In this document: one piece after another, positions 3,201 to 64,000 of the stretch
Numbering within the stretch: the first letter of the stretch is position 1
Layout of the letters: the number at the start of each line of letters is the position of its first letter
Assembly (NCBI GenBank): GCA_013349405.1
Contig: DUZS01000008.1
Coordinates: forward strand, 1 to 64,000
Direction of reading: 5' to 3'
DNA: 64,000 nucleotides
Source: Desulfuromonadales bacterium
GTDB lineage: Bacteria > Desulfobacterota > Desulfuromonadia > Geobacterales > Pseudopelobacteraceae
Notes under the pieces: model-generated
Told to the model about the DNA's origin: nothing
What the model saw: only the letters and a program-made list of their open reading frames with translations
Database searches by the model: none
Position numbers and translations under genes: made by a program

Positions 3201-6200
3201 CTCCCGACAACGACTGCCAGCCCGGCTGGCGGCACACAGACGGGGCCGATTAGTGTCTACCTGACCGTCAGCGAACCGGCGACCATCTATTACACTACCG
3301 ATGGCGCCGATCCAACAACCTCTTCGCTTTCTTTTACTGATAGCGTTGGCAACGTTCCCAAAGGGCCGATTGCCATCTCCGGCAATACAACACTCAAATA
3401 CTTTGCCAAGGATCTTGCGGGTAATTCCGAAGCACCGATCAAGCAGCAGGTTTATTTTTACGGAACACCAACAACGCTCACGCTTGGCCTGGGCGGTCTC
3501 AGCAGCATTGTCTACGGCGATAACCTGCCCGTTACAGCGACGATAACTCCCGGTGCCGGGCCGACCGGCACGGTACAATTCTTTGTCGATGGTTCTCCAT
3601 ATGGGGCTGCTGTACCGCTTAGCGGCACATTGGCCACGACAACCATTTCGGGACTTCAGGTCGCCGGTTCACCGCACACGATTTCTGCAGTTTACGGCGG
3701 AGATGCTTCCTATGCCAGCAGTTCTGACGCAAAACCAGTGACTGTCAGTAAGGCCGGCCAGGCCGTCACCTTTGGCGCTCTCTCCGGCAAGACGTTCGGC
3801 GACGCACCGTTCACGCTGAGTGCCACCGCATCGAGCACTCTTCCGGTAAGTTTCAGCATCTTCAGTGGTCCGGCGACCATCAGCGGCACCACGGTAACCA
3901 TCACCGGCGCCGGCACTGTTGTTGTCCGCGCCAGCCAGGCCGGTAATGCCAATTACAGCGCGGCGGCAGATGTTGACCAGTCATTCGTGGTCGCTCAGGC
4001 GACGCAGAGCATTACTTTCGGCGCCCTCGCCGGTAAGACATACGGCACTGCGCCGTTCACGGTGAGTGCCACCGCATCGAGCACCCTTCCGGTAAGCTTC
4101 AGCATTCTCAGTGGTCCGGCGACCATCAGCGGCACCACGGTAACCATCACCGGTGTCGGAACTGTTGTTGTCCGTGCCAGCCAGGCCGGTAACGCCAACT
4201 ACAGCGCCGCAGCAAATGTTGACCAGTCATTCGTGGTCGCCCAGGCCACACAGAGCATTACCTTCGGCACCTTGCCGAACAGGAACGTCACTGACGCCCC
4301 GTTCACCGTAAGCGCTAGCGCGTCAAGCTCTCTGCCGGTAAGTTTCAGTATCGTCAGTGGTCCGGCAACCATCTCAGGAAACACCATTACCCTGACTGGA
4401 ACAACCGGAACAGTCGTCGTTCGTGCCACTCAGGTCGGTGACACCAACTACACCGCCGCTGCTCCGGTCGATCAGAGTTTTCTGGCCAGATCAGCTCAGA
4501 CAATCACCTTTGGCGCTCTCTCCGGCAAGACGTACGGCGATGCACCGTTCACGGTAAGTGCCACCGCATCGAGCACTCTTCCGGTAAGTTTCAGCATCGT
4601 CAGTGGGCCGGCGACCATCAACGGCACGACGGTAACCATCACCGGTGCCGGCACTGTTGTCGTCCGCGCCAGCCAGGCGGGTGACGCCCTCTACAACGCG
4701 GCGCCGGATGTTGACCAGTCATTCGTGGTCGCTCAGGCGACGCAGAGCATTACTTTCGGCGCCCTCGCCGGTAAGACATACGGCACTGCGCCGTTCTCGG
4801 TGAGCGCCACCGCATCGAGTACTCTTCCGGTAAGTTTCAGCATCTTCAGTGGTCCGGCAACCATCAGCGGTACCACGGTAACCATCACCGGTACCGGGAC
4901 GGTTGTTGTCCGCGCGAGCCAGGCGGGTAACGCCAACTACAGCGCGGCGGCAGATGTTGACCAGTCATTCGTGGTCGCTCAGGCGATGCAAAGCATCACC
5001 TTCGGCGCCCTTGCCGGGAAGACCTACGGAAATGCGCCGTTCACGGTGAGCGCCACCGCATCGAGCACTCTTCCGGTAAGTTTCAGCATCTTCAGCGGTC
5101 CGGCGACCATCAGCGGCACCACGGTAACCATCACCGGTGCCGGAACTGTTGTTGTCCGTGCGAGCCAGGCCGGTGACGCCAACTACAGCGCCGCAGCAAA
5201 TGTTGACCAGTCATTCGTGGTCGCCCAGGCCACACAGAGCATTACCTTCGGCACCTTGCCGAACAGGAACGTCACTGACGCCCCGTTCACCGTAAGCGCT
5301 AGCGCGTCAAGCTCTCTGCCGGTAAGTTTCAGTATCGTCAGTGGTCCGGCAACCATCTCAGGAAACACCATTACCCTGACTGGAACAACCGGAACAGTCG
5401 TCGTTCGTGCCACTCAGGTCGGTGACACCAACTACACCGCCGCTGCTCCGGTCGATCAGAGTTTTCTGGCCAGATCAGCTCAGACAATCACCTTTGGCGC
5501 TCTCTCCGGCAAGACGTACGGCGATGCACCGTTCACGGTAAGTGCCACCGCATCGAGCACTCTTCCGGTAAGTTTCAGCATCTTCAGTGGTCCGGCGACC
5601 ATCAACGGCACCACGGTAACCATCACCGGTGCCGGCGCTGTTGTCGTCCGCGCCAGCCAGGCGGGTGACGCCCTCTACAACGCGGCGCCGGATGTTGACC
5701 AGTCATTCGTGGTCGCTCAGGCTGCCCAGAGCATTACCTTCGGCGCCCTCGCAGGTAAGACATACGGCACTGCGCCGTTCTCGGTGAGCGCCACCGCATC
5801 GAGCACTCTTCCGGTAAGCGTCAGCATTCTCAGTGGTCCGGCGACCATCAGCGGCACCACGGTAACTATCACCGGTGCCGGAACTGTTGTTGTTCGCACC
5901 AGCCAGGCGGGTAACGCCAACTACAGCGCGGCGGCAGATGTTGACCAGTCATTCGTGGTGGGTAAAGCAGCGCTGACCATAACGACCAACGATAAAGTGC
6001 GCTTTGCGAAAGTGGCAAATCCGACCTTCAGCGCCACGTATTCAGGCTTTGTCAATGGTGACACTGCGGCGGTACTTGGAGGTGCATTGACATTCGCCAC
6101 TGCTGCTACGATTACCAGTGATCCGGGAACCTACCCGATCACGCCTGCAGGACAGACTTCGGGAAATTACACCATTACCTTCGTACCGGGTACCCTGACG

Positions 6201-6437
6201 GTCAGAGTCATCGGTGATATTTCAGGCGGTTCCGGCTCTTCCGATGGCGTTTTTGACCTTGCCGATGCCCTGAAATACCTGCGCATTTCTCTCGGTCTTG
6301 ATCCCGCTCCTGCATCGCTCGATGGCATTAAAATGGCACCGGTTATCGGTGGCGTTCCATCCATGCCGACAGGCGGCAGCAGAGTAACTGTCGGTGATGT
6401 CGTGGCCGCGCTGGAACATTTGGTCGGACTCTGGTAG
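234..6437 (+). CDS. Giant repeat-rich surface protein with dockerin-like C-terminus, 5' end apparently missing
   Basis: A 2067-residue protein built from extracellular beta modules. In order I see an IPT/TIG-like domain (about residues 303-385), a carboxypeptidase-regulatory-like fold (about 390-460), chitobiase C-terminal-like segments with the YYTTNG pattern (about 650-780 and 1010-1080), Ig-like domains (about 900-990 and 1080-1170), nine about 82-residue Ig-like repeats (about 1175-1910), an MBG-type module, and a C-terminal segment with SDGVFDLADALKYLR that resembles a dockerin/EF-hand repeat. The given start is GTG with no ribosome site and no signal peptide. The same frame stays open and protein-like back to base 120, after stops at 108 and 117, with no ATG, GTG or TTG in that stretch. 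An exported protein should carry a signal sequence, so I infer a lost or frameshifted 5' end. The role is probably adhesion or surface scaffolding. The downstream lipoprotein starts 46 bases later and is probably co-transcribed. Confidence 0.8.
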   Translation: MTGAYSIAGITPGATTPLYVALLAGKNSMVLGIVPAPAASGTFTITNVPPGHYRVQGIVDANNSHANDAGDLNLGNNMAPVVVVDGSEGAVPVKGGKLVFTRSGSLPQLSVQHTLDTTSSIPAEWYNLNFEFQNNSCFVTGVSIANGATGTLPLSPVSVGRGNWGSVGYWTSWSNARPNADPVAGDLYQATIEYSDSVACPNEIVPLRVQRINDDFARASFPRGTVVDNPVINASWRIPNPQPYYYYDFQAWAGNNGGGDGFPPSMLSTYLGPLNSSTQWDLQSRDMAGNSASARYSYSVVATGPQITGFSPVSGVNGTTTVTISGSGFMPGGTVITPIVKFNGAQATVSASSDTSITVTVPGNASQGPITVTAGGVSGVTGISTTEFTPTISFGATGASVFVADSSNLPVSGVVVHPIGIATSNATTDINGQYTITGITSGMPLDFKLSKTGYLDTYTNFGAYTANVTTGNYGIFTNADLTSWNVAGVNWTGTVSASNPPAAAMTNMIAGSRGIIRSRTVDANNTSVNFAGVVVTAYSWRYHGQQYKVVYGGTTSGPDPTLTSTGTNGRFYVLDVDDGDFVTVVADKAGYIFRPRSYNVRGGAVGQSSIQGALAPIVAITPPPNPQDMSPLAITLTTANPSSGIYWTVNGTDPRWFGSFCTSPCNIAINPPAPSTSAAVTVRAVAMAAGVYGDQASATYNLFMDTTPPVLTINPGVVNQAGLDYTYTNSLPLNVTFTSNEQTTIYYTTNGLQPTTADSVVTVAAANGTSTPISISQDLTVLKYFGKDTTGNSSQVQTVNYVLDTTPPTISQVFSQSIYNNRAFSVFVNASDVGGIAGYMITGTSTPPSLTDPLWNTINPVSVTVPADGDFSYFVWAKDSAGNLSAAFPFTFKVDTLAPIAPTITPFTNNRVNSTTPTVTGTAEANSSVQLYEGATPLASATANVSGTWSAGLPFLTEGSSHTIIATATDAAGNISPGSNLMTFTIDTTLPTTTASPAGGTQTGPISVYLTVSEPATIYYTTDGADPTTSSLSFTDSVGNVPKGPIAISGNTTLKYFAKDLAGNSEAPIKQQVYFYGTPTTLTLGLGGLSSIVYGDNLPVTATITPGAGPTGTVQFFVDGSPYGAAVPLSGTLATTTISGLQVAGSPHTISAVYGGDASYASSSDAKPVTVSKAGQAVTFGALSGKTFGDAPFTLSATASSTLPVSFSIFSGPATISGTTVTITGAGTVVVRASQAGNANYSAAADVDQSFVVAQATQSITFGALAGKTYGTAPFTVSATASSTLPVSFSILSGPATISGTTVTITGVGTVVVRASQAGNANYSAAANVDQSFVVAQATQSITFGTLPNRNVTDAPFTVSASASSSLPVSFSIVSGPATISGNTITLTGTTGTVVVRATQVGDTNYTAAAPVDQSFLARSAQTITFGALSGKTYGDAPFTVSATASSTLPVSFSIVSGPATINGTTVTITGAGTVVVRASQAGDALYNAAPDVDQSFVVAQATQSITFGALAGKTYGTAPFSVSATASSTLPVSFSIFSGPATISGTTVTITGTGTVVVRASQAGNANYSAAADVDQSFVVAQAMQSITFGALAGKTYGNAPFTVSATASSTLPVSFSIFSGPATISGTTVTITGAGTVVVRASQAGDANYSAAANVDQSFVVAQATQSITFGTLPNRNVTDAPFTVSASASSSLPVSFSIVSGPATISGNTITLTGTTGTVVVRATQVGDTNYTAAAPVDQSFLARSAQTITFGALSGKTYGDAPFTVSATASSTLPVSFSIFSGPATINGTTVTITGAGAVVVRASQAGDALYNAAPDVDQSFVVAQAAQSITFGALAGKTYGTAPFSVSATASSTLPVSVSILSGPATISGTTVTITGAGTVVVRTSQAGNANYSAAADVDQSFVVGKAALTITTNDKVRFAKVANPTFSATYSGFVNGDTAAVLGGALTFATAATITSDPGTYPITPAGQTSGNYTITFVPGTLTVRVIGDISGGSGSSDGVFDLADALKYLRISLGLDPAPASLDGIKMAPVIGGVPSMPTGGSRVTVGDVVAALEHLVGLW
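3754..5967 (+). repeat. Nine tandem 246-bp units coding Ig-like repeats
   Basis: Nine consecutive units of about 246 bases, each coding about 82 residues, begin near 3754 and end near 5967. Each unit has the pattern TFGALxGKTYGxAPFxV, then SATASSTLPVSFSI, then GPATISGTTVTITG and DQSFVV. Units 3 and 7 carry a divergent TLPNRNVTDAPF version. The period is a whole number of codons, so unit gain or loss keeps the frame. Confidence 0.95.
3999..5966 (+). repeat. 984-bp higher-order duplication (units 2-5 copied as units 6-9)
   Basis: Within the tandem array, the order of distinct unit types in 3999-4982 (units 2-5) recurs in 4983-5966 (units 6-9), an offset of exactly 984 bases, or four units. The divergent unit 3 and its copy unit 7 give the same 76-residue antisense translation, so they are almost identical at DNA level, whereas neighbouring units differ. 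A recent four-unit duplication, or later gene conversion, explains this best. Confidence 0.9.
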
Positions 6438-28337: not shown

Positions 28338-31300
28338 ATGAACAAGGCCTTTCAGAGGTTTGTAACATTGATTATGCTGGTCAGCCTGCTTCTTGTTATT
28401 GCTGCATGCGGTGGCGGCAGTGGCGGTGGGGGACCTTCCGGACCGGTGCAAATGATAACAATATCAGGTACGGCAACGAAAGGCCCTATTAAGAACGCAC
28501 TGGTACAGATATTCCGCTTGCGTGCCGATGGCAGTACTGGAGCACTGCTCGGATCGGGCGTTTCAAGTGCAACCGGAACGTACGCCATCGACATACCAGC
28601 AGCGAATGCCTACGTGCCACTCCTGATCAGGGTGACCGGTCAGCCTGGCGCTGCCTACATAAGCGAGGCGGCAAAGGCTGAGGTGCCGTTTACGTCAGGC
28701 GAGACATTTAACGCCATTGTTGAATTTGTGGTTCCGGGGCAAAGTGTTGCTGTCACCCCCCTCACGGAAGCGGCCTATCAGCAGTTTCAGAAAATTTTGA
28801 CCGACAACCCCGCACTCGCAAATGATGCATATCTTGGTGCGGCAATCAATGCCGCTAACAGCCGGATTGCCAGTCTCTATTTCGGACTTGGCAGTTCCGG
28901 GAGTATGATTCTTGCCAATCCCGCCGAAAACATCAGCTACACTGCAGTTCTTCTCCTCATTGATCAGGCCTTGGAAACCCAGAAAAGCAAAGGGTTTCCT
29001 GCAAACACCACGACAATAATGGCTATTGTCAATCAGGCCTTTGCTAATGCTGTTCTGACTAATCCGGCATATCAGGTTTATCTGCAAATGTTGACGGCAG
29101 CAGCCGGTCAGGTCAAGCTGGCAAACCCGAATAATCCGGCACTGATAGCAGCGATAGATGCAATTGTTGCTCTGGCCGGCAACCCTCCTGCCGTACCAAT
29201 CTGGACTGACACAGTGCAGCCCACTGCGCCGACTCATTTAAATGCGACGTCAAAACTTTTTGCTGACAATACCGGTTCTGTGACGCTTTCATGGGGAGCA
29301 GCAACTGATAACGTCGCAGTAACCGGGTATGACATTTATCGCGACGGCATAAAAATTGTAACCGTGTCAGCTACCACACTGTTCTATACCGACCTGCCGC
29401 TTGCAACCAATGCCACATATAAATATGTCGTATTTGCCTTCGATGCGGTCGGCAACCGCTCTGTGGCAAGTAATCAGGTGCAGGTGCCGCTCGGAGTGCC
29501 GATTGTCGATTCAACTCCGCCAACTGCGCCGGAAGGCCTTTCGGCCACGACGTTCATAATTAATGATACGACCGCCCAGGTAACGCTCTCGTGGCGTCCG
29601 TCAACAGATAATAAAGGTGTTGCGGGGTATGACGTATTCCGTGACGGCGTCAAAATAGCTGCCGTGCCGTATCCCGGTTATACCGATCCTTCTGTTGCTA
29701 TTCCTGGCACCTATCAGTACGTAATAGTCGCCTTCGATGGGGCAGGAAACCGTGCTGGAAGCAATCCGCTCTCCGTCACGCCCAACAAGCCATCTCTGGG
29801 AGTCACGGTAAACGGCCAACTTTCCTGGGATGTTTCCGGTTTACCGGCAAAGGATATTACAGCACCCAGCGCCCCTGCAAATCTGGCGGCGACCACTTTT
29901 GCGCAGACAGCAACCTTGAGCTCGGTGGTACTCACCTGGAATGCAGCCACTGATAACGTTGCCATTGCAGGGTATGAAATTTACCGTGACGGTGTCAGAA
30001 TTGCCGACAAAGTAACCGGCCTGACCTACACCAATCTGTCGGTACCTGCCAACATAACATACCTGTACTACGTTATCGCCGTTGACACTTCCGGCAACCG
30101 TTCGATTGCAAGCAACCAGCTTTCGGTAACGCCAAATCAGGCCTCTCTTGGGGTGACCATAAATGGCCAGCTTTCATCCGGAATAATCGGATTACCGCTT
30201 AAAGACATCACACCACCGACAGCACCATCGAACCTGACAGCCTCCACATCTGCAGTAACGGCAACCACCAGCGCAGTGCTCCTTTCCTGGAGTCCTTCGT
30301 CTGATAATATTGCCGTCACCGGCTATGAAGTGTACCGTAACGGCAGTTTGATTGCCACGGTGTCTCTGCTGGGCTATACGGACGCATCAGTAACCTCAAA
30401 CGTTACCTACACCTATTACATAAAAGCGCTCGATGCCGCGGGCAATCGTTCCGTGGCAAGCAACACCCTGTCAGTAACGCCAAACCTCCCCTCCTTGGGG
30501 GTAACGGTAAACGGGCAGATATCTACCGACATAACGGGCCAGCCTTTCCTGGATATTACTGCTCCGAGCGCAGCCACCAATCTTACCGCTTCTACAGCTG
30601 CCGTGACGGCAACAACAAGTTCGGTGCTCCTCTCCTGGAGCCCGGCAACTGATAACGTGGCGGTAACAGGGTATGATGTTTATCGCAATGGCAGCAAAAT
30701 CGCCACGGTAACAGTGTTGGGATATCTCGATGCGTCTGTTACTTCCAGTGCTACGTACACGTATTACGTCATCGCCTTTGACAAGGCCGGAAATCGCTCA
30801 CCGGCAAGCAGTCCGCTTACCGTAACTCCGAGTACACCCTCCCTGGGGGTAACCGTAAGTGGTCAGTTATCACCCGGTGTAACCGATCTGGCATTTAAGG
30901 ATATCACCGCACCGACAGCGCCGACTAATTTGACAGCAACGACATCTGTCGATACGGCAACGACAAGTGTGGTGTTTCTGGCGTGGAGCCCGTCTTCGGA
31001 TAACGTTGCGGTAACCGGTTATGACGTCTACCGTAACGGAGTCAAGGTTGCCACAGTAACAACGTTGGTCTACAGAGACTCATCAGTACCTACGGGCGTA
31101 GCAACCACTTATTTTGTCAAGGCTTTTGACGCTGCCGGAAACACCTCTCCAGCAAGCAGCCCGCTTGTTGTAACACCAGGACAGGCTTCGCTTGGAGTTA
31201 CCATAAACGGTCAGCTGTCTACCGGAGTAACAGGACTGCCACAGCAGGATGCGACTGCACCGTCAACACCGACAAACGTAACTGCAACGGTAACCACCGT

Positions 31301-31589
31301 GACAGGAACGACCAGTTCCATAAATCTCGCATGGAATCCATCTACTGACAATACCGCCGTAACCGGCTACGAAGTTTACCGGAACGGCACCAGGATCACT
31401 ACAGTGACAACCCTGGTATATAACGACTCGCCGGTTACTTCCGGTGTGACCTATACGTATTATGTCAAAGCCATAGACGCAGCAGGGAACCGTTCGCCAG
31501 CCAGCAGCCAGCTTACGGTAACTCCGAGTCTGTCTACCCTGGGTATTACATTCGGCGGCCAGTTATCGTTACCAATTCTCGGGTTTTAG
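28338..31589 (+). CDS. Large FN3-repeat lipoprotein of the conduit operon
   Basis: A 1083-residue lipoprotein (signal ending VIAAC, then a Gly-rich linker). Residues about 40-290 form an N-terminal region with a carboxypeptidase-like strand pattern (GTATKGPIKNALVQIF). From about residue 295 come seven fibronectin type III repeats of roughly 110 residues (TAPTNLTA, WSPSSDNVAVTGYDVYRNG, AFDAAGNRSPAS), each of the last five ending in a linker LGVTxxGQLS. No heme motif is present. It probably reaches out from the outer membrane as a scaffold for the cytochromes or for contact with minerals or cells; that is inference. GAAGGAGG precedes the ATG. Confidence 0.85.
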   Translation: MNKAFQRFVTLIMLVSLLLVIAACGGGSGGGGPSGPVQMITISGTATKGPIKNALVQIFRLRADGSTGALLGSGVSSATGTYAIDIPAANAYVPLLIRVTGQPGAAYISEAAKAEVPFTSGETFNAIVEFVVPGQSVAVTPLTEAAYQQFQKILTDNPALANDAYLGAAINAANSRIASLYFGLGSSGSMILANPAENISYTAVLLLIDQALETQKSKGFPANTTTIMAIVNQAFANAVLTNPAYQVYLQMLTAAAGQVKLANPNNPALIAAIDAIVALAGNPPAVPIWTDTVQPTAPTHLNATSKLFADNTGSVTLSWGAATDNVAVTGYDIYRDGIKIVTVSATTLFYTDLPLATNATYKYVVFAFDAVGNRSVASNQVQVPLGVPIVDSTPPTAPEGLSATTFIINDTTAQVTLSWRPSTDNKGVAGYDVFRDGVKIAAVPYPGYTDPSVAIPGTYQYVIVAFDGAGNRAGSNPLSVTPNKPSLGVTVNGQLSWDVSGLPAKDITAPSAPANLAATTFAQTATLSSVVLTWNAATDNVAIAGYEIYRDGVRIADKVTGLTYTNLSVPANITYLYYVIAVDTSGNRSIASNQLSVTPNQASLGVTINGQLSSGIIGLPLKDITPPTAPSNLTASTSAVTATTSAVLLSWSPSSDNIAVTGYEVYRNGSLIATVSLLGYTDASVTSNVTYTYYIKALDAAGNRSVASNTLSVTPNLPSLGVTVNGQISTDITGQPFLDITAPSAATNLTASTAAVTATTSSVLLSWSPATDNVAVTGYDVYRNGSKIATVTVLGYLDASVTSSATYTYYVIAFDKAGNRSPASSPLTVTPSTPSLGVTVSGQLSPGVTDLAFKDITAPTAPTNLTATTSVDTATTSVVFLAWSPSSDNVAVTGYDVYRNGVKVATVTTLVYRDSSVPTGVATTYFVKAFDAAGNTSPASSPLVVTPGQASLGVTINGQLSTGVTGLPQQDATAPSTPTNVTATVTTVTGTTSSINLAWNPSTDNTAVTGYEVYRNGTRITTVTTLVYNDSPVTSGVTYTYYVKAIDAAGNRSPASSQLTVTPSLSTLGITFGGQLSLPILGF

Positions 31590-31810: not shown

Positions 31811-34800
31811 ATGATTGGCAAGAAACTATGGTACATGGTAACGCTCGTAGCACTAATGATGTTGCCTCTGGCAGGATGCAGCGGCAGCGGTTCAAGCACA
31901 ACCAGCAGAGACGGAATCCCGGTAACGTTCAACGGTAAAGTGGGAAAAACGACCCTTAAATCGGTCTTTGCAACTGCCGACCTCGGCACGCTGACCATCA
32001 TTGATGCCCAGAACGGGGCGACCCTGGGCAGCGGCGTCATTGACGGCAGCGGCTCTTTCAAAAATGTGACGATAACCCTGCCTACCGCCAAAGCGACTTT
32101 GGTATTCAAGGCTGACGTCAACCTGGCAGGAACGCCGTTCCGTGCCATCGTTCCGATGGATTTGAGCAATCCTCCGGCGTCCGGTATCACCGGCAGCAAT
32201 ACCGTTAACATCACCATCAGCCAGGAATCCACCAATATTGCCATTACAACTTCCGCCATGCTCGGCGTAACCGGAATTCTGGGAGATCCAGGTGCAACTC
32301 TCAACTCCGCAAACAAAACGTATGCTGATGCGGCACAGCAGGTTGTTAACAACGGTGGCCAGGTTCTCTCTTACAGCTCGGCCGGAAACGTTCAGTTGAC
32401 CGGTTCACTGTCGAATGCGGCACTGCTTCCTGCCATGGATGCTGCTGCGCTTACCGTTGCCGACCTCAACAACGTTGCGCTTGGTGGCGATATTCAGAGC
32501 ACCTTCATCCCGACCAACAAGCCTATCGTGAACTTCACGGTAACAAACAAGGCGACCGGAAAAGGTATCAAGGGTCTGCGCACCTTTGCACTACATGTCG
32601 CGAAACTGACCCCGGAACTTAATGGCAGCAACTCTTACTGGATGAACTACATTGCCAGCGGTCTGCCGCAGACGGCGATGCCCGGTTCTGCAAACGCAGC
32701 CACCAACCCGACGACTGATGCTGCCGACAGGTTCAACACCACGACCGGTGCCAAACTGGCCGATGGTTACAAGGTTATCGACCATGGCGACGGTTCCTAC
32801 ACGGTAACCTTTGGCGCCGATATCACCAAAAATACCAACGTAGCTTATGACGCCAATGCAACAACCCGTCTCGGCATCTCCGTCCGCAGTGTCGCCGTCC
32901 CCGGTGTTATCGGCCTTACACCCGGTGCGTACGGCGGGCCGATCAATCCTCTGACTAACGCTCTTCAGGCAGTATTTACGAGCCAGAACACCACCAACCT
33001 TATTTATGACTTTATCCCTGCGACCGGCGCAAAACTGGCGACACCTGCACGTGATCTTGTAACTGCTGATGCCTGTGCCCAGTGTCACTACAAACTCGCA
33101 TTTGCAGTGCCAAACAACGGCCTCTCCGGTCATACCGGTTCCCGGACCGATACCAAGCTCTGCGTAATGTGCCACACCAAACAGGTTGCCAATGGCGAAG
33201 GCGAGTTCGTTACCTTTATTCACCGCATCCATATGGGTGAAGTCTTTAACGAAGGCGGCTCATTCAAGCCGGTTACCGGCTCTCTCGTAACCTATAACGA
33301 GCAGACCTATCCGCAGGACATCAGAAACTGCACCACCTGCCACAAAGGTAATGACAGCTGGAAAGATAAGGCGAGTCAGAAGGCATGTGGTTCCTGCCAC
33401 AACGCCGTTGACTTTGCTTCACATCACGGTGGCCAGCCGACCGACCAGAACTGTACCGGCTGCCATGCCGACGCAACTCTGCTGCATGTCGCCATGACAC
33501 CACCTGATGCCGCCTTCTCCGGTTGGAACGGCGCTACAACCATCAGAGCCAATGCCGGTTACATGGCTGTTGAAGGTTCGATTGCAGCTGCAGAAAAAAT
33601 CACTTATGACGTCAAGGAAGTTAAAGCAGTCGCTACCGCTGATGTCAATTTTGTGAATCCTTCGATAACGTTTAAACTGAAAAAGAAAGACAACAGCAGT
33701 GTTGTATTCGGTGATTACTCCTCAACTAACGGAGTACGGTCCATCATGCCCGGTTTTGTCGGTACACCCGGTGTGTACTTCGCCTTTGCCGTGCCGCAGG
33801 ACAACATCGCAGCTCCGGCCGATTATAACGCAACAGCCGGCGCCAACCTGAAAAACATCTACTACACCTCCATCGGTAAAACAGGTGGCAGCACACCTGC
33901 AGTAGCATCAACCATGACCGGTCCTGATGCTACCGGCTATTACACCGCCACATTGACAACGGTAAAAATTCCTGTTTCAGCAACAATGCTCACCGGCGGC
34001 CTCGGATACCAGTACGATTACCCGAATAACCAGCCGCTTACCCAGATGAACGTAACCGGCGTTCCGCCATACGACCTCACCACGAAAATCGGCGGCCTCA
34101 TCATGGCTCCGACAAATGTTGTCAAGGTTGCCACCGGCTACAGCGGACGCCGTGCGATTGTTGCCAACGCCAAGTGTAATGCCTGCCATGTACAGTTGGG
34201 CGTGAAGCCGCAGTTCCATGTCGGCCAGCGCAATGATGCGCCAACCTGTTCCTTCTGCCATAACACCAACCGTGTCAACAGCGGCTGGTCGGCAAACTTG
34301 AAGGATTCCATCCACTCGCTCCACGCAGCTTCCAAACGTGACACCAGGTTCAGTTGGGAAGTCTCGGCTGGAGCAAAATACTGGGCCGTTACCTTGCCGG
34401 GTACAAACGCATCCAACCGTCCGGTCCTGAAAAACTGCGAAATGTGCCACCTTGCCGGCATGTATGACTTCAGCAACAGCGCATACACAAGCACGACATA
34501 CAACAAGGGTGGCGTTGCTGTGACCGGTGCTCCTGCTCTTACCGATCGCCTGCTCTACAGCACGTATGCAACCGGATTAATTCCTCTTGATGCACAGTTT
34601 ATTGTTACCGGTCTGGAAACTGTTCCGGCTGCATATTATTCACCATTTGTCACACCTGGCGCTAATTATGGTACTGGTTTTGCCTTCTCAGCAGCAACAG
34701 GTGCAATTACACCTGCAGCAGACACGACTCTGGTCATGTCACCGATTACGGCTGCCTGCTACTCATGCCATTTTTCCTCGCTTCCGAGGGCGCACATGAT

Positions 34801-34939
34801 CATGTTCGGCGGATCAATTTATGAGCCACGCAGTTCAGCGCTTGCCAAGAAAGAGCAGTGTCTGCTCTGCCATGGAACAGCCCAGAACGTTTCAAACGTC
34901 ACTGTTCCAACCATCAAAGCAATTCACCGCTGGTGGTAA
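31811..34939 (+). CDS. OmcA/MtrC-family decaheme c-type cytochrome lipoprotein
   Basis: A 1042-residue outer-surface cytochrome. The signal ends MLPLAGC, giving a lipid anchor. The first about 410 residues are beta-rich with no heme. Ten CxxCH sites follow: CAQCH (about 421), CVMCH, CTTCH, CGSCH, CTGCH, CNACH, CSFCH, CEMCH, CYSCH and CLLCH (about 1016), in two groups of five split by a beta domain, as in OmcA/MtrC family proteins. Such proteins transfer electrons to Fe(III) or other extracellular acceptors. It follows the barrel and lipoprotein cytochromes and is probably the outer terminus of the conduit. It is longer than Shewanella MtrC (about 670), mainly through the N-terminal part. Confidence 0.92.
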   Translation: MIGKKLWYMVTLVALMMLPLAGCSGSGSSTTSRDGIPVTFNGKVGKTTLKSVFATADLGTLTIIDAQNGATLGSGVIDGSGSFKNVTITLPTAKATLVFKADVNLAGTPFRAIVPMDLSNPPASGITGSNTVNITISQESTNIAITTSAMLGVTGILGDPGATLNSANKTYADAAQQVVNNGGQVLSYSSAGNVQLTGSLSNAALLPAMDAAALTVADLNNVALGGDIQSTFIPTNKPIVNFTVTNKATGKGIKGLRTFALHVAKLTPELNGSNSYWMNYIASGLPQTAMPGSANAATNPTTDAADRFNTTTGAKLADGYKVIDHGDGSYTVTFGADITKNTNVAYDANATTRLGISVRSVAVPGVIGLTPGAYGGPINPLTNALQAVFTSQNTTNLIYDFIPATGAKLATPARDLVTADACAQCHYKLAFAVPNNGLSGHTGSRTDTKLCVMCHTKQVANGEGEFVTFIHRIHMGEVFNEGGSFKPVTGSLVTYNEQTYPQDIRNCTTCHKGNDSWKDKASQKACGSCHNAVDFASHHGGQPTDQNCTGCHADATLLHVAMTPPDAAFSGWNGATTIRANAGYMAVEGSIAAAEKITYDVKEVKAVATADVNFVNPSITFKLKKKDNSSVVFGDYSSTNGVRSIMPGFVGTPGVYFAFAVPQDNIAAPADYNATAGANLKNIYYTSIGKTGGSTPAVASTMTGPDATGYYTATLTTVKIPVSATMLTGGLGYQYDYPNNQPLTQMNVTGVPPYDLTTKIGGLIMAPTNVVKVATGYSGRRAIVANAKCNACHVQLGVKPQFHVGQRNDAPTCSFCHNTNRVNSGWSANLKDSIHSLHAASKRDTRFSWEVSAGAKYWAVTLPGTNASNRPVLKNCEMCHLAGMYDFSNSAYTSTTYNKGGVAVTGAPALTDRLLYSTYATGLIPLDAQFIVTGLETVPAAYYSPFVTPGANYGTGFAFSAATGAITPAADTTLVMSPITAACYSCHFSSLPRAHMIMFGGSIYEPRSSALAKKEQCLLCHGTAQNVSNVTVPTIKAIHRWW

Positions 34940-59491: not shown

Positions 59492-59576
59492 ACACACGAT
59501 AATACTAAACCATCTGCGAGGATGGGGCGGAAAGCCTACAGGGTCTCTTTGAGACAGCCGGGATGCCGAAATGTCA
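59492..59576 (+). promoter_or_regulatory. GEMM-Ib riboswitch (3',3'-cGAMP-type, GEMM-I class)
   Basis: ACACACGATAATACTAAACC, then a stem with GCGA tetraloop (CCATC/GGATGG), GGGGCGGAAAGCCTA, a second hairpin GGGTCTC/GAGACA, and GCCGGGATGCCGAAAT. This order and wording match the GEMM-I class and in particular the Geobacter 3',3'-cGAMP-selective sequences found upstream of pgcA. A GEMM-I c-di-GMP preference cannot be excluded by eye. The next gene is a PgcA-like cytochrome. Confidence 0.88.
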
Positions 59577-59602
59577 CCACTTTATTCGGTCCCGGTTTTT
59601 TT
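59558..59602 (+). terminator. Riboswitch expression platform, intrinsic terminator
   Basis: CCGGGA (59558-59563) and CCGAA (59566-59570) from the aptamer 3' part can pair with TTCGGTCCCGG (59585-59595), followed by seven T. Aptamer folding and this stem are mutually exclusive, so ligand binding would favour read-through. Confidence 0.8.
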
Positions 59603-59729
59603 GTGTCCGGACACAAACGAGACGGGGACGGCACGAGGAGGTGTCGCAAGACGACAACACTATGGACAATCAATTATCGACAGATTCATTCACTCTCACC
59701 AACACCACACATCTTTGGAGGAATTATCT

Positions 59730-60248
59730 ATGTTCGTTAAATCAAAGAAATTTATAACCGTGTGCAGCATATCATCATTACTGATTGCAGGTTTCGCCGT
59801 CGCCGGCTTTGCTGATGAGGATTCAGACTACAAAAGCGAAAAGAAAGAGAAGAGAGATCACCATTATGTAAGACCGACGGCAACACCACGACCGACTGCA
59901 ACACCACGGCCAACGGCAACACCACGGCCAACGGCAACACCGGCACCAACTGCCACGCCGCGGCCTACGGCAACTCCGGCACCAACCGCTACGCCGCGTC
60001 CGACGGCAACTCCGGCGCCAACACCGACACCGACACCACGTCCGACGGCAACTCCGGCACCAACCGCAACCCCTGCTCCGGTAAAAACATGGGCATTGTA
60101 TAACGCCAACTGCGCCATGTGTCATGGGACATCGAAGCAGGGTGCGTCAGCATCCACCACCCAAGCCGCTATCACCAACAATCTTGGCGGCATGGGCTCC
60201 ATCAAACTGACTTCGGCTCAGCTTACCGCTCTGGCAGCAGGTCAGTAA
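59730..60248 (+). CDS. PgcA-like monoheme c-type cytochrome with Pro/Thr repeat stalk
   Basis: A 172-residue exported protein. Signal peptide about 1-28; then a charged linker; [12 protein letters not shown] repeats at residues 48-117; then [18 protein letters not shown] with one CxxCH (C128-H132) and a possible axial Met155 in GGMGS. PgcA of Geobacter is an extracellular cytochrome with Pro/Thr repeats, three heme domains and a cGAMP riboswitch. This one keeps the layout but has one heme and about a third of the length. ATG 59730 has GGAGG. The Pro/Thr stalk is an ideal site for O-glycosylation, and the next genes encode the machinery. Confidence 0.85.
59871..60080 (+). repeat. Pro/Thr hexapeptide-coding tandem repeat
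   Basis: About eleven imperfect 18-base units coding RPTATP or APTATP, within the cytochrome gene. Copy number could change by slippage without breaking the frame. Confidence 0.9.
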
Positions 60249-60279
60249 CGAAGATACGCTGCTAACGTACCACTAACGG

Positions 60280-60310
60280 CCGGGAGGGCACACTGCTCTC
60301 CCGGTTTTTT
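60280..60310 (+). terminator. Intrinsic terminator after the cytochrome gene
   Basis: CCGGGAG and CTCCCGG arms (60280-60286, 60298-60304) are followed by six T. It separates the cytochrome from the mannosyltransferase gene 34 bases on. Confidence 0.85.
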
Positions 60311-60343
60311 AAACTGTCGTACCTAAAACTACGGGCAGAGGAA

Positions 60344-62800
60344 ATGAGCGGAATGATGCGCATACTGGTTACCATAGTACTGCTGCTGCACATGGCACCG
60401 TGCCTTTCAGCCGCCGGGATTCCACCCGCACAAAGTGACGGCGCAATCCTCAATGCACGGGAATGGTCACAGTACGACTGGAACGGCACTGCTGCAAACA
60501 CCGGAGCAGCGCGCTTCATGATCGTGCAGAATACAGACGCCGCAGAGCTCCTTATTGTCGCTTCAGCGCCAAACGATGCCCGCTTTGTACGTGACGTTGC
60601 AGTTGAGCCGGATACCGTCTATCTCTTCAGCTGTCAGGCCCGGAGCAAAAATATCGGATCTGATGCCCGTGGCGTCAATATTTCGGTTAAAGACATTCTG
60701 GGCGGTTCTCCAGAAATACCCGCCAATGAGAAGGAGTGGCAGACTCTTGCCTTTTACGGCAAAACAGGCCCGGAGCAGAGGAAGATCTCCGTAACGGTCG
60801 GCATTGGCGGCTATGGCAGCGTAAACAGTGGTACCGCCTGGTTCAGGAACATTTCGGTACGTAAGGCTGCCAGCGTTCCGGCAGACATCAGCGTTGTGCC
60901 GTTGCTCCCGGCCGACGCATCATCTCCACCACCAGCCGGAACAAACCGTGCCGGCGGCCTGGTAATTGCCGTTTTGGGATGTTTTGGCCTCCTCATGGCG
61001 TGGTGGGGCACTATACTGGGAAAGCAGAATTCCAGAACAGGCGAAGAGGTTACACAGAATACAGTGCTGACTTCTGAACCACAGGAAAAGGTTGAGCGGC
61101 GCGACATGGCCGTTATGGGAGCATTGGCGGCAGTGTGTCTGCTTGTTTCACTGTTCAATCTTGGCGGGCACCATGCACCTGAGACCGGCAGACTGGCAGC
61201 GACGTCCGGAGAATTCATAACTGTCGAGTTTGGACGTGAAGTCGATCTTTCCCGGATATATTACTACTGCGGCATCAATAACCGGGAAGGTGACGATAAG
61301 CAGTACACTTTCGCTGCTCGAACTTCATCCGGAGCCTTTGAAACCGTGACCTCCTTCGTCAAAAAAGACTCGAATACCTGGAAGTACCGTGAAGTCGCCA
61401 TACGCACAACGGCTGTCCGGCTCGTTGCTAACGCACCCGGCAGCCGTTTGAATGAACTTGCCTTTGTTGAAAAGGGGAGCCGAACTCCTCTGACTGGGTT
61501 GAAAATCGGAGCCACGAATTTCACCAACTCTCGATTTGGTAAACCTGAAAATCTGATAGATGAGCAGACGGCTTTCGAGTATGCCCCCTCATTCCGGACC
61601 GGATTCTATTTCGACGAAATTTATCATGCCCGGACCGCCTGGGAAATGCTCAATCTCATCGAGCCCTATGAAACAACGCATCCACCGCTGGGCAAGACGC
61701 TGATCGCAGCCGGAATTGCTGTTTTCGGCATGAACCCCTTTGGCTGGCGGAGCGTCGGGGCACTGTTCGGCGTTGCACTGGTTCCGCTTATGTACCTTCT
61801 TGGCCTGAAACTGTTCCGCAACCGCTTTTACGCCTTCTGCACGTCGTTTCTGATGTTGGTCGAATTCATGCGCTTCGCCCAGACGCGTGTAGCGGTGATC
61901 GATGTCTACGGCGTTTTTTTCATCCTGATTATTTACTATTTACTGCTCGACCTGTTTCCGGAGAAGGGAGAAACCTCCCGCAGGAGTGTCACCAGAACAA
62001 TTTTTCTGGCGGGGATTGCCTTCGGAGTCGGAGCAGCGTGCAAGTGGATTGTACTCTATGCCGGGTGCGGTATGGCGCTGCTGGCGGTGCTGCGGACGCT
62101 GGCAGATCTGCGCTGCCGGAATTACCCTGAATCACGCAGCGCCGTCACATTTGTCCTGCAACGGATCGGCCTCTGCCTGATAGCATTCGGAGCTGTACCG
62201 GCCGTAATCTATCTGCTCGCATATATACCATTTCTCCTTATTCCCGGTCCGGGACACGAACTGGCCGATGTATTCCGTATTCAGGCTCATATGCTCGACT
62301 ACCACCGTACGCTCAAGGCAACCCACCCGTTTTCGTCGGCATGGTGGACATGGCCGCTTAATCTCTACCCCATGTGGATGTACACCGGCGAAGGGCTTTC
62401 CACCGGCACCGCCTCAAGCATAGTTTCCTTCGGCAACCCGGCGGTCTTCTGGGTTGGCGTGCCGGCGGTCGCAGCAACGGCCGTACATGCGATACGCACC
62501 CGTGACAGCAAGTCAGGGGTCATACTGCTTGCGCTCATCTGTCAATACCTGCCGTGGATCGGTATAAATCGGATGGCATTCATCTATCACTTTTTCTCAA
62601 CAGTGCCGTTTATGATCCTCTGCATCGTTACGGCTCTGAAGAGCGCAGAAAACTGCTGCCCGCACTTCCGCAGAGTGACGTGGGGATACCTGGGAATTGC
62701 TGCCGGGCTATTTATCATTTTCTACCCGGTGTTGTCAGGAATGCATATTTCGCGGGATTACATCGCGATGCTCAAATGGTTTCCGACCTGGTACTTTTGA
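60344..62800 (+). CDS. Protein O-mannosyltransferase-like (GT39/PMT family) with N-terminal beta domains
   Basis: An 818-residue membrane protein. N-terminal signal, then beta-rich extracytoplasmic domains (to about residue 410; the second resembles a discoidin/CBM fold: VEFGREVDLSRIYYY), with a membrane helix near 205-225. The GT39 core follows: FYFDEIYHARTAWEM (about 420), with the catalytic Asp-Glu, and THPPLGK (about 445), then multiple membrane helices. PMT enzymes move mannose from polyprenyl phosphate to Ser/Thr of exported proteins. It lies just downstream of a Pro/Thr-rich cytochrome and upstream of a dolichyl-phosphate-mannose-synthase-like gene. Lack of a second PMT partner is noted. 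Confidence 0.85.
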   Translation: MSGMMRILVTIVLLLHMAPCLSAAGIPPAQSDGAILNAREWSQYDWNGTAANTGAARFMIVQNTDAAELLIVASAPNDARFVRDVAVEPDTVYLFSCQARSKNIGSDARGVNISVKDILGGSPEIPANEKEWQTLAFYGKTGPEQRKISVTVGIGGYGSVNSGTAWFRNISVRKAASVPADISVVPLLPADASSPPPAGTNRAGGLVIAVLGCFGLLMAWWGTILGKQNSRTGEEVTQNTVLTSEPQEKVERRDMAVMGALAAVCLLVSLFNLGGHHAPETGRLAATSGEFITVEFGREVDLSRIYYYCGINNREGDDKQYTFAARTSSGAFETVTSFVKKDSNTWKYREVAIRTTAVRLVANAPGSRLNELAFVEKGSRTPLTGLKIGATNFTNSRFGKPENLIDEQTAFEYAPSFRTGFYFDEIYHARTAWEMLNLIEPYETTHPPLGKTLIAAGIAVFGMNPFGWRSVGALFGVALVPLMYLLGLKLFRNRFYAFCTSFLMLVEFMRFAQTRVAVIDVYGVFFILIIYYLLLDLFPEKGETSRRSVTRTIFLAGIAFGVGAACKWIVLYAGCGMALLAVLRTLADLRCRNYPESRSAVTFVLQRIGLCLIAFGAVPAVIYLLAYIPFLLIPGPGHELADVFRIQAHMLDYHRTLKATHPFSSAWWTWPLNLYPMWMYTGEGLSTGTASSIVSFGNPAVFWVGVPAVAATAVHAIRTRDSKSGVILLALICQYLPWIGINRMAFIYHFFSTVPFMILCIVTALKSAENCCPHFRRVTWGYLGIAAGLFIIFYPVLSGMHISRDYIAMLKWFPTWYF

Positions 62801-62877
62801 TGATGACACCACAACACCTCTCCGACACTGAGGCCGATGTAAATCGCCCTAAATCTGATTTATAAAAAGGATAAGAT

Positions 62878-63876
62878 ATGAATAATCCAATAATTTCTGT
62901 AGTCGTTCCCGTGTATAATGAAGAAGAGGTCATCCATGAATCCTATGCCCGCCTCAAGGACGTGCTGGAGCGGTTGCAAGAGTCGTATGAGTTGATTTTT
63001 GTCAACGACGGCAGCCGTGATCGTACTGCGGAAATAATATGTGATATATGTGCAGATGATCCGACGGTTCGACTGATTGATTTTGCACGCAATTTCGGCC
63101 ATCAGACAGCTATTACCGCCGGGATGGATTATGCGAAAGGAGATGCCGTCATTGTCATTGATGCGGACCTCCAGGACCCCCCGGAAGTAATGCCCGAGAT
63201 GATTGCCAAATGGCGGGAGGGTTTTGACGTCGTGTACGGCCAACGGGCAAAGCGCGAGGGAGAAAGCCTCTTTAAGCGCTTCACGTCAGCCGTTTTCTAC
63301 CGTCTCCTCCAGAAGCTGACCGACATACACATTCCGGTGGATACGGGAGATTTCCGCTTGATTGACCGCAAGGTGTGTGATGCTCTGAAAAGCGTCAAGG
63401 AGCGCAATCGCTATGTGCGTGGTATTATCAGCTGGCTCGGCTTCAAGCAGGTCGGTGTGGAGTTCGTCCGGGAAAAACGCTTTGCCGGCGAGACCAAATA
63501 CCCGCTCAAAAAAATGCTCCGCTTTGCTTTTGACGCCATCACTTCGTTTTCCTACAAACCTTTAAAGCTTGCCACCTATGTAGGAATTATCGTCTCGCTG
63601 AGTGGCTTTGCCTATATGCTTAATGTCATTTACTTGAAGCTTTTCACCAACGCCACTATTACCGGTTGGGCTTCAATGATGTCGGTGACCCTCTTTTTTA
63701 ACGGTGTTGTCCTGATGATGCTTGGCATCATCGGTGAGTATATCGGCAGGATTTACGATGAGGCGAAAGGACGGCCGCTGTATGTGGTGCGAGAAGAGGT
63801 GAACTTTGCGCGTGCAGGGTGGCGAAAGCCCGTGGCCGTACAAGCCAATCCAACCCCTTATTCGTTGGCCGCCTGA
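62878..63876 (+). CDS. Family 2 glycosyltransferase, polyprenyl-phosphate-sugar synthase type
   Basis: A 332-residue enzyme with SVVVPVYNEEEVI at the N-terminus, VNDGSRD, the DxD motif VIDADLQDPPE, and two C-terminal membrane helices (about 230-250 and 262-288). It matches dolichyl-phosphate-mannose or GtrB-type synthases, which charge a polyprenyl phosphate with a sugar from a nucleotide donor. It would provide the substrate for the mannosyltransferase just upstream. AAGGA precedes the ATG. Sugar identity is not shown by sequence. Confidence 0.92.
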   Translation: MNNPIISVVVPVYNEEEVIHESYARLKDVLERLQESYELIFVNDGSRDRTAEIICDICADDPTVRLIDFARNFGHQTAITAGMDYAKGDAVIVIDADLQDPPEVMPEMIAKWREGFDVVYGQRAKREGESLFKRFTSAVFYRLLQKLTDIHIPVDTGDFRLIDRKVCDALKSVKERNRYVRGIISWLGFKQVGVEFVREKRFAGETKYPLKKMLRFAFDAITSFSYKPLKLATYVGIIVSLSGFAYMLNVIYLKLFTNATITGWASMMSVTLFFNGVVLMMLGIIGEYIGRIYDEAKGRPLYVVREEVNFARAGWRKPVAVQANPTPYSLAA

Positions 63877-63901
63877 CCGATAGCGATTGAGGAGTGCTAC
63901 C

Positions 63902-64000
63902 ATGAAACAACGTACTGCGCGGCACCGACATTCGATAGTGGAATTTATTAAATTTGCCTGCGTTGGCGTACTCAATACCTGTATTGACGTGGCCATCTTT
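63902..64000 (+). CDS. GtrA-family flippase (partial, cut by window end)
   Basis: ATG at 63902 has GAGGAG upstream and codes MKQRTARHRHSIVEFIKF followed by ACVGVLNTCIDVAIF, the first membrane helix typical of GtrA-like proteins. These are thought to flip the polyprenyl-linked sugar across the membrane. Only 33 codons are in the window. Confidence 0.75.
   Translation, partial: MKQRTARHRHSIVEFIKFACVGVLNTCIDVAIF

Follow-up and report, generated by a model that had tools for sequence, protein, structure and literature searches.

Geobacter cytochrome filaments have been reported to be glycosylated (PMC9473688), and PMC11520253 leaves open why the cytochrome PgcA, whose domain III binds and reduces minerals, retains its (PT)x linkers. 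A one-heme PgcA homologue has already been recorded in G. metallireducens (PMC5732950). Here we describe a locus in which a PgcA-like cytochrome stands next to a set of glycosylation genes. It lies at the 3' end of the window, by which we mean the whole 64,000-nt stretch analyzed (positions 1 to 64,000 of contig DUZS01000008.1, assembly GCA_013349405.1, from a Desulfuromonadales bacterium). On the forward strand it reads GEMM-I riboswitch, secreted cytochrome with a Pro/Thr-rich stalk, protein O-mannosyltransferase (PMT), GT2 sugar synthase and GtrA flippase; beyond the window, the same contig continues with a polytopic glycosyltransferase (GT5) and then, on the opposite strand, a TolC-family protein. 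Across 141 genomes of the order, every canonical PMT gene was found beside such a cytochrome, and stalk threonine was higher where PMT is present. Both observations appear best explained by glycosylation of the stalk, and we think it probable that this is a locus for a secreted, sugar-coated electron carrier that responds to 3',3'-cyclic GMP-AMP (cGAMP).

The components are already known: PgcA, GEMM-Ib switches, bacterial PMTs, glycosylated Geobacter cytochromes, and pairs of a substrate with its glycosylation genes such as Cnm-Pgf. Their conserved combination we did not find in the literature searched. That literature, which is short on subscription papers, yielded no paper joining a c-type cytochrome with O-mannosylation or with a riboswitch, or PgcA with TolC, in Geobacter.

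PMT is paired with the cytochrome across genomes

We searched for PMT with a profile (A1, E <= 1e-60) and with Pfam PF16192, and for the cytochrome with a second profile (A2). At the family level of GTDB, PMT homologues occurred at nine places in 8 of 76 genomes, and a cytochrome-domain match lay near all nine. At the order level, 13 of the 141 genomes carried canonical PMT, at 14 loci in all; the two models gave identical loci, and PF16192 found canonical PMT nowhere else in the 141. All 14 loci carried an A2 cytochrome match at a gap of at most 3.0 kb. The initial annotation had named, beforehand, an absence of PMT-cytochrome co-occurrence as one observation that would count against it; what we found was a pair at each canonical locus. 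A 15th pair was found at L095 (JACRMM010000052.1; G, C and L numbers are our handles for genomes, contigs and loci).

A pattern-based contig scan returned 27 PMT-like loci. The ten with 46-66% best-segment identity all had a cytochrome, nine of them being the order-level loci already described, while the 17 with 27-39% identity, mostly from Clostridia, had none within the DNA read. When the search was extended to the class (277 genomes), one further locus appeared, a distant PMT fusion in G181; blast found no cytochrome match in 19.5 kb of sequence there, and the tally at class level is 14 of 15. Taking one locus per genome, the chance estimate for the pairing was 4.5e-26, a product that assumes uniform placement and is good to an order of magnitude only. 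Chance adjacency of the two genes was rejected on this estimate and on the 14/14 linkage.

The G181 fusion (L176:7147-10824, on G181:C7) encodes 1225 residues with PMT-like and GT5-like parts and has GtrA and GT2 upstream. Further upstream is an open reading frame with a Thr run (L176:1324-1620), possibly another substrate.

Stalk threonine content follows the presence of PMT

Were the stalk a target of PMT, threonine there should be less needed in genomes that lack the enzyme. Thr was counted wherever a 10-residue window contained four or more Pro, our definition of a Pro-rich stretch. Per-genome mean stalk Thr was 15-51% in 14 PMT genomes or records and 6-25% in the seven where PMT was not found (Mann-Whitney one-sided p = 0.0006, two-sided 0.0012); with only the four PMT-less genomes that are more than 90% complete, p was 0.006. 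This comparison left out the stalkless G054b, G122a, G123a and G125a, two fragments (G017:C164 and G129:C91a) and the stalk of G017:C291, and kept those of G001 and G005, although a contig end truncates each. Ala tends to take the place of Thr in lineages that lack the module, and several non-PMT stalks are PAPAPA repeats. A G+C bias behind PT versus PA stalks was not supported (Thr versus G+C, rho 0.02).

The difference is also seen within genera. In genus g22, stalk Thr is 33% in G122, 51% in G123 and 30% in G125, all with PMT, versus 14% in G124 and 6% in G126, where PMT was not found; in genus g2 it is 34% in G002 versus 21% in G001. Independent contrasts on a TolC tree of 18 rows gave r = 0.69 (p = 0.0017), with p between 0.0015 and 0.0062 for variants in the choice of stalk or row and between 0.0005 and 0.0075 on leaving out one row at a time. 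The tree test takes one Thr value per row: for G096 the stalk beside TolC (30%, which favors our reading less than the alternative would), for G055 the one beside PMT (21%), for G122 and G123 the one at the far end of the locus, and for G129, whose PMT is on another contig, the C8 stalk. G125, with broken frames, and G002, G056 and G017:C146, where TolC was not found, were left out. Three independent pairs lie on starred branches, and none is reversed.

As a control, we examined the Pro-rich linkers of multi-heme relatives (20 stretches, 19 of which gave a value; the G049 stretch has a single heme motif). Their Thr content was 20, 20 and 16% in three PMT genomes versus 13-34% in 16 without, so a general effect of PMT on all Pro-rich cytochrome linkers is not seen in this set.

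These data bear on a simpler account, in which the stalk does no more than act as a spacer of the polyproline type, PT versus PA is drift, and PMT modifies few or no stalk residues. Multi-heme relatives do retain PT linkers without PMT, PgcA produced in Shewanella is active (PMC5732950, PMC11520253), and the texts of these two papers contain no wording on glycosylation, nor that of PMC11520253 any on mannosylation. However, covariation of Thr with PMT was seen for the PMT-linked protein, the multi-heme linkers showing none, and it survives correction for relatedness; canonical PMT, moreover, was found only at these loci among the 141 genomes. We therefore regard the spacer account as very unlikely.

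Layout of the locus

The source contig (C8) belongs to a 3.43-Mb assembly. The features of the locus are as follows.

59494..59570, + strand: GEMM-I (cyclic di-GMP-I, or c-di-GMP-I, class) riboswitch aptamer with A at nucleotide 20 (nt-20), a predicted cGAMP sensor (RF01051 match, model position 11 = A, nt-20 rule of PMC6456294)
59556..59602, + strand: predicted intrinsic terminator, hairpin 59556-59597 with its 5' arm formed by the aptamer 3' side, then a U run (fold and sequence)
59730..60248, + strand: secreted monoheme PgcA-like cytochrome, 172 residues from ATG (signal peptide by eye, Pro/Thr stalk, CxxCH, profile match)
60278..60312, + strand: strong predicted intrinsic terminator between cytochrome and PMT, hairpin 60278-60306 (fold)
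60344..62800, + strand: GT39 PMT, 818 residues (PF02366, PF16192, motifs)
62878..63876, + strand: GT2 polyprenyl-phosphate sugar synthase, GtrB-like (PF00535, nearest structure 5ekp)
63902..64000, + strand: start of a GtrA-family flippase gene that runs to contig position 64399 (full 63902-64399; PF04138)

The analysis confirmed the parts named in the initial annotation (riboswitch, Pro/Thr-stalk cytochrome, GT39, GT2 and the start of GtrA). What lay beyond its view is the TolC-family protein as a constant partner of the cytochrome and the optional nature of the glycosylation module.

Elsewhere in the window, positions 31811-34939 (+) encode an MtrC/MtrF-like outer-membrane cytochrome of 1042 residues with 10 CxxCH motifs, and 28338-31589, upstream of it, a 1083-residue protein with rhamnogalacturonan-lyase-like and fn3 domains. 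A 2067-residue protein with bacterial Ig-like, chitobiase C-terminal and MBG domains (234-6437, +) is probably a large surface protein.

The glycosylation genes behave as one optional module

We compared the 15 PMT loci with nine strong cytochrome loci without an adjacent PMT. The latter are the A2 matches at E 9.3e-38 or better that have no PMT nearby; seven are in genomes where PMT was not found and two (G129:C8 and G017:C291) in PMT genomes. Among the weaker matches, many of them multi-heme, three loci whose neighbors were read (G000:C53, G000:C18, G019:C58) had no match to the cassette TolC. At the 15 PMT loci, GT2 was present at 14, GtrA at 13 and GT5 at 14, with gaps at contig ends; at the nine others, all three were absent. 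PMT, GT2, GtrA and GT5 thus behave as one optional module.

The TolC-like protein is distributed differently, at 11 of 15 PMT loci and 8 of 9 others (19 of 24 in total). The five loci where the DNA read shows no TolC-like gene are G017:C146 and G002, each truncated by a contig end, and G129:C91, G056 and G017:C291. In the window genome it has 781 residues, including a SPOR domain, and is encoded on the opposite strand. Between most loci these proteins share 40-53% identity, while the window genome's next TolC relatives match at 29% and 23% over parts, which argues that the linked TolC is not just any efflux protein. The locus thus seems to combine two units, a cytochrome-TolC pair and an optional four-gene glycosylation module.

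Could the module instead glycosylate another surface target, either the linked TolC-like protein or other exported proteins, its adjacency to the cytochrome reflecting a common surface regulon? The window genome's TolC-like partner does have a Pro/Thr/Ser-rich linker (by eye) ahead of its SPOR domain, Pgf of Streptococcus mutans modifies both Cnm and WapA (PMC5856776), and the G181 fusion shows a PMT without a nearby cytochrome match. Yet the TolC-like protein is present at eight cytochrome loci that lack the module, it takes a short form of 489-526 residues at five PMT loci, and it is the stalk Thr itself, beyond gene presence, that tracks PMT. We consider another target unlikely.

One genome may record the loss of the module. 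G001 is the sister of G049 in the TolC tree (99/96), and on G001:C99 (L083:668-780) an orphan PMT-type leader, a GEMM-I aptamer plus terminator, lies between the cytochrome and a convergent TolC gene, with no PMT, GT2, GtrA or GT5 beside it. This arrangement suggests that G001 lost the module as a unit and that the switch was left behind; alternatively, G049 may have gained the module behind an existing aptamer. In the Geotalea toluenoxydans record (L125:6324-12011), each of the genes for PMT, GT2, GT5 and the TolC-like protein is broken into two frames, perhaps by sequencing errors rather than decay, because G122 and G123 of the same genus are intact.

The glycosylation enzymes

The PMT scored above the Pfam cut-offs for PF02366 (55.9 bits, cut-off 22.7) and PF16192 (61.6 bits, cut-off 32.4) and far below that of the NCBIfam Pmt equivalog NF058602 (88.8 of 800 bits). 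As far as profile scores tell, it is a GT39 PMT and not an equivalog of NF058602. The GT-C core motifs are DE (424-425), THPPLGK (445-451) and RVAVID (515-520). D424-E425 is invariant in 9/9 aligned PMTs and probably lies in the first external loop; THPPLGK is kept in all nine, as is the RVAVID stretch, with Ile for Val in G054. In the Mycobacterium PMT, catalysis has been assigned to the DE motif and an Rx4-6D-type aspartate, and proline-rich acceptors are favored through an external loop with a key Trp and Pro (PMC12331936). The window PMT has a Trp/Pro-rich stretch, HPFSSxWWxWPL, at 661.

The predicted domain order is an N-terminal beta-sandwich (~31-180), transmembrane helices, a second beta-sandwich (~285-395) and the GT-C core. 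The AlphaFold model of the whole protein is poor (predicted local distance difference test, pLDDT, 53; predicted template-modeling score, pTM, 0.33) and was used for domain placement only; the second beta-sandwich rests on this low-confidence model. The extra N-terminal domain of ~150 residues is present at 10 of 15 loci. G054, G056, G122 and G123 have short PMTs, and so does G125, which is broken in its assembly. Modeled alone (pLDDT 82, pTM 0.78), the domain gave carbohydrate-binding modules (CBMs) as its top matches, with VIA-align Z of 13.8 to 10.8 among the matches listed. The fold also matches domains of tailspikes and insecticidal proteins, so it is no sign of sugar binding by itself; the domain may read sugars.

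The GT2 matches PF00535 (130.8 bits), and its nearest solved structure is 5ekp (E 1.3e-97), of sll0501, which we take to be a GtrB. GtrB-type enzymes use several sugars. For these two reasons we read the activity of the module as O-glycosylation rather than O-mannosylation; mannose, the sugar proposed in the initial annotation, is not supported by a GtrB-like donor synthase. The GT2 scored 296.3 bits against the PgfS equivalog NF047588 (cut-off 500). The full GtrA gene matches PF04138 (98.6 bits). GT5 is listed from a TTG overlapping GtrA, and an alignment of 13 relatives suggests a start ~14 codons later; in the window genome it has no Pfam match, and the L095 relative falls just below the GT87 cut-off (24.2 of 25).

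GtrA, a GtrB-like GT2 and a polytopic transferase make up the classic O-antigen glucosylation set, and all three are present here. The locus could accordingly be a gtr-type cassette that decorates lipopolysaccharide (LPS) or another envelope glycan, its PMT being a lipid- or glycan-directed GT-C enzyme; the ArnC model, too, gives the GT2 202.9 bits, with a cut-off of 529. Against this, PF16192, which the PMT contains, describes the C-terminal part of protein O-mannosyltransferases, and with the ArnT model the enzyme reaches only 19.4 of 567 bits. A role in LPS would explain neither the 14/14 linkage to a PgcA-like cytochrome nor the threonine covariation, and we find such a cassette scarcely probable.

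The stalked cytochrome

The cytochrome has a Sec-type signal peptide, judged by eye, a Pro-rich stalk of 67 residues with 24 Pro and 22 Thr, and a single CxxCH heme motif. Met155 stands at the position of the Met of PgcA domains I and II and is the likely distal ligand. If the signal peptide is removed ahead of Asp29, where we place the cleavage site, the mature apoprotein has a predicted mass of about 14,788 Da, to which one heme would be added. A profile built from the window protein and ten relatives (eleven sequences) matched, among solved structures, PgcA domain I (8qj6, E 5.9e-15) and domain II (8qjg, E 8.7e-15); domain III was not among its structure matches. Matches of the stalk to unrelated Pro/Thr repeats were dismissed as low-complexity. 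Judged from its sequence, the protein resembles the PgcA relay domains on a single stalk. The initial description of it as PgcA-like thus holds for the homologous heme domain and does not extend to identity with PgcA, from which it differs in having one heme and no lipobox visible by eye in its signal peptide.

A predicted cGAMP-type riboswitch and two terminators

RF01051 (c-di-GMP-I) matched at 59494-59570 (+) with 41.5 bits against a gathering score of 35, and no other Rfam match reached its gathering score anywhere in the window. Model position 11 is A rather than G; from the Rfam structure line, we take this position to correspond to nucleotide 20 in the reference riboswitch. An A20G change converts the cGAMP-selective Gmet_0970 switch to c-di-GMP (PMC6456294), and we predict that the window aptamer is of the cGAMP type. 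A stands at the nt-20 position in 33/33 aptamers read at the cassette and related cytochrome loci, a set that includes the window's own and one at G019, a weaker relative. Across the window genome, 15 of 22 GEMM-I aptamers, again counting the window's own, have A there.

Immediately downstream, a U-tailed hairpin (59556-59597, -17.1 kcal/mol) takes its 5' arm from the 3' side of the aptamer, making an anti-termination switch plausible; this fold alone is little better than shuffles (z -1.08). The hairpin between cytochrome and PMT (60278-60306) is stronger, at -23.1 kcal/mol and z -3.51, and there is no separate aptamer in front of PMT in the window. Transcription of the whole cassette from one riboswitch, as first proposed, is therefore not supported, and expression of PMT would depend on read-through or on another promoter. 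Co-transcription of cnm and pgfS in S. mutans goes on despite a predicted terminator between them (PMC5856776). Aptamers at the gathering score were found at 8 of 15 PMT loci, window included (the G017:C164 PMT locus is truncated by its contig end), and 7 of 9 cytochrome loci without PMT carry at least one, that in G001 being the orphan. At three loci (G055, G049, G129), PMT has its own separate GEMM-I aptamer.

The window genome has 21 GGDEF matches, of which a motif parse read 19, from 18 proteins. At the selectivity position, 17 have Asp, one Asn and one Ser. The Ser-type protein is a 456-residue REC-GGDEF protein (G000:C44:3864-4334; L168:1465-2835, - strand) that matches the GacA-type cGAMP synthase in architecture and residue and is a candidate for that activity; Ser at this position of Hypr GGDEF enzymes is discussed in PMC6456294. 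Its gene is followed by a histidyl-tRNA synthetase-like gene (by eye).

The same genome holds five tandem GEMM-I pairs (C18:17820-18170, C7:72891-73172, C13:75825-76019, C14:64570-64785 and C1:201998-202218). The C18 pair lies ahead of a one-heme cytochrome with a lipobox-like Cys, and the C1 pair has G instead of A at the nt-20 position.

Proposed mechanism

We propose that rising cGAMP, made by a GacA-type Hypr GGDEF enzyme, would act through the riboswitch to turn on the monoheme cytochrome, which would be exported by Sec and receive its heme in the periplasm. GT2 would make a polyprenyl-phosphate sugar inside, GtrA would flip it to the other side, and PMT would move the sugar off its polyprenyl-phosphate carrier onto threonines of the stalk. 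Extension of the glycan is the probable role of GT5, and the linked TolC-family protein is likely to serve either in export of the cytochrome or in keeping it at the outer membrane. Our guess is that the coat serves for protease resistance and as a stiff, hydrated spacer. That the stalk is the substrate of PMT was first proposed from adjacency; the 14/14 pairing and the rise of stalk Thr with PMT put it on a stronger footing than adjacency alone, and glycosylation itself we still infer. We also entertain, as a doubtful extension, a bacterial redox mucin: a cGAMP-induced carrier, densely O-glycosylated by its own PMT, with the CBM-like domain reading sugars that are already in place and thereby driving dense coating and the TolC protein as a dedicated exporter or anchor.

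Several observations weigh against a sugar-coated stalk under cGAMP control. Four PMT loci also hold a stalkless cytochrome. The threonine test was devised after the data were seen, and three of the seven PMT-less genomes, G005, G096 and G124, are incomplete (completeness between 52 and 84%, with one at 78%), so that a PMT may have been missed. Of the three independent pairs, one or two show no difference when the threshold is set at 20%, and three are too few for significance. Certain stalks run against the trend, with 9% Thr in G055a despite PMT at its locus and 30, 25 and 21% in G096b, G130 and G001, where PMT was not found. Thr-rich Pro linkers of multi-heme relatives exist without PMT, so PT repeats need not be glycosylated. 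As for the switch, a strong terminator splits the cytochrome from PMT in the window, and an aptamer at the gathering score is missing at 6 of 15 PMT loci (G054, G056, G122, G123, G125 and L095).

The conserved pairing makes the sugar coating of extracellular electron carriers directly testable, by named genes: the locus could show whether such carriers are deliberately coated, by which enzyme and under which signal. If the proposal is true, it ties cGAMP signaling to protein glycosylation and provides a predicted substrate for a bacterial PMT outside Actinobacteria.

Comparison with known systems

A close known counterpart of the cytochrome is PgcA (GSU1761) of Geobacter sulfurreducens. The two share a heme domain, homologous to domains I and II of PgcA, as well as repeats of Pro and Thr, an upstream GEMM-I riboswitch of the cGAMP type and predicted secretion. 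PgcA, however, has three hemes rather than one and a bis-His, mineral-binding domain III without a counterpart in the window protein, which in turn has no lipobox by eye and whose gene is linked to those of a TolC-like protein and of the PMT module. OmcS and OmcE filaments are likewise extracellular Geobacter cytochromes with reported surface glycosylation (PMC9473688), but they are multiheme, and the excerpts of that paper name no dedicated glycosylation genes.

Among enzymes, the window PMT resembles the actinobacterial GT39 type (MtPMT) in its PMT and PMT_4TMC domains, DE motif and Rx4D motif, and its HPPLGK is also found in aligned yeast-type PMTs. The liking of bacterial PMTs for proline-rich acceptors (PMC12331936) fits the Pro-rich stalk. 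The window PMT departs from the MtPMT type in its low NF058602 score, its extra CBM-like N-terminal domain and its second predicted beta-sandwich. As a system, the locus resembles Pgf and Cnm of S. mutans, where a PgfS-like GT2 and a PMT-type membrane protein are encoded beside a surface-protein gene and a predicted terminator separates substrate and glycosylation genes (PMC5856776). In comparison with Pgf, the window GT2 falls below the PgfS cut-off and no PgfE-type epimerase was recognized in the cassette; the candidate substrate here is a cytochrome, and the partners are GtrA, TolC and a predicted cGAMP-type riboswitch.

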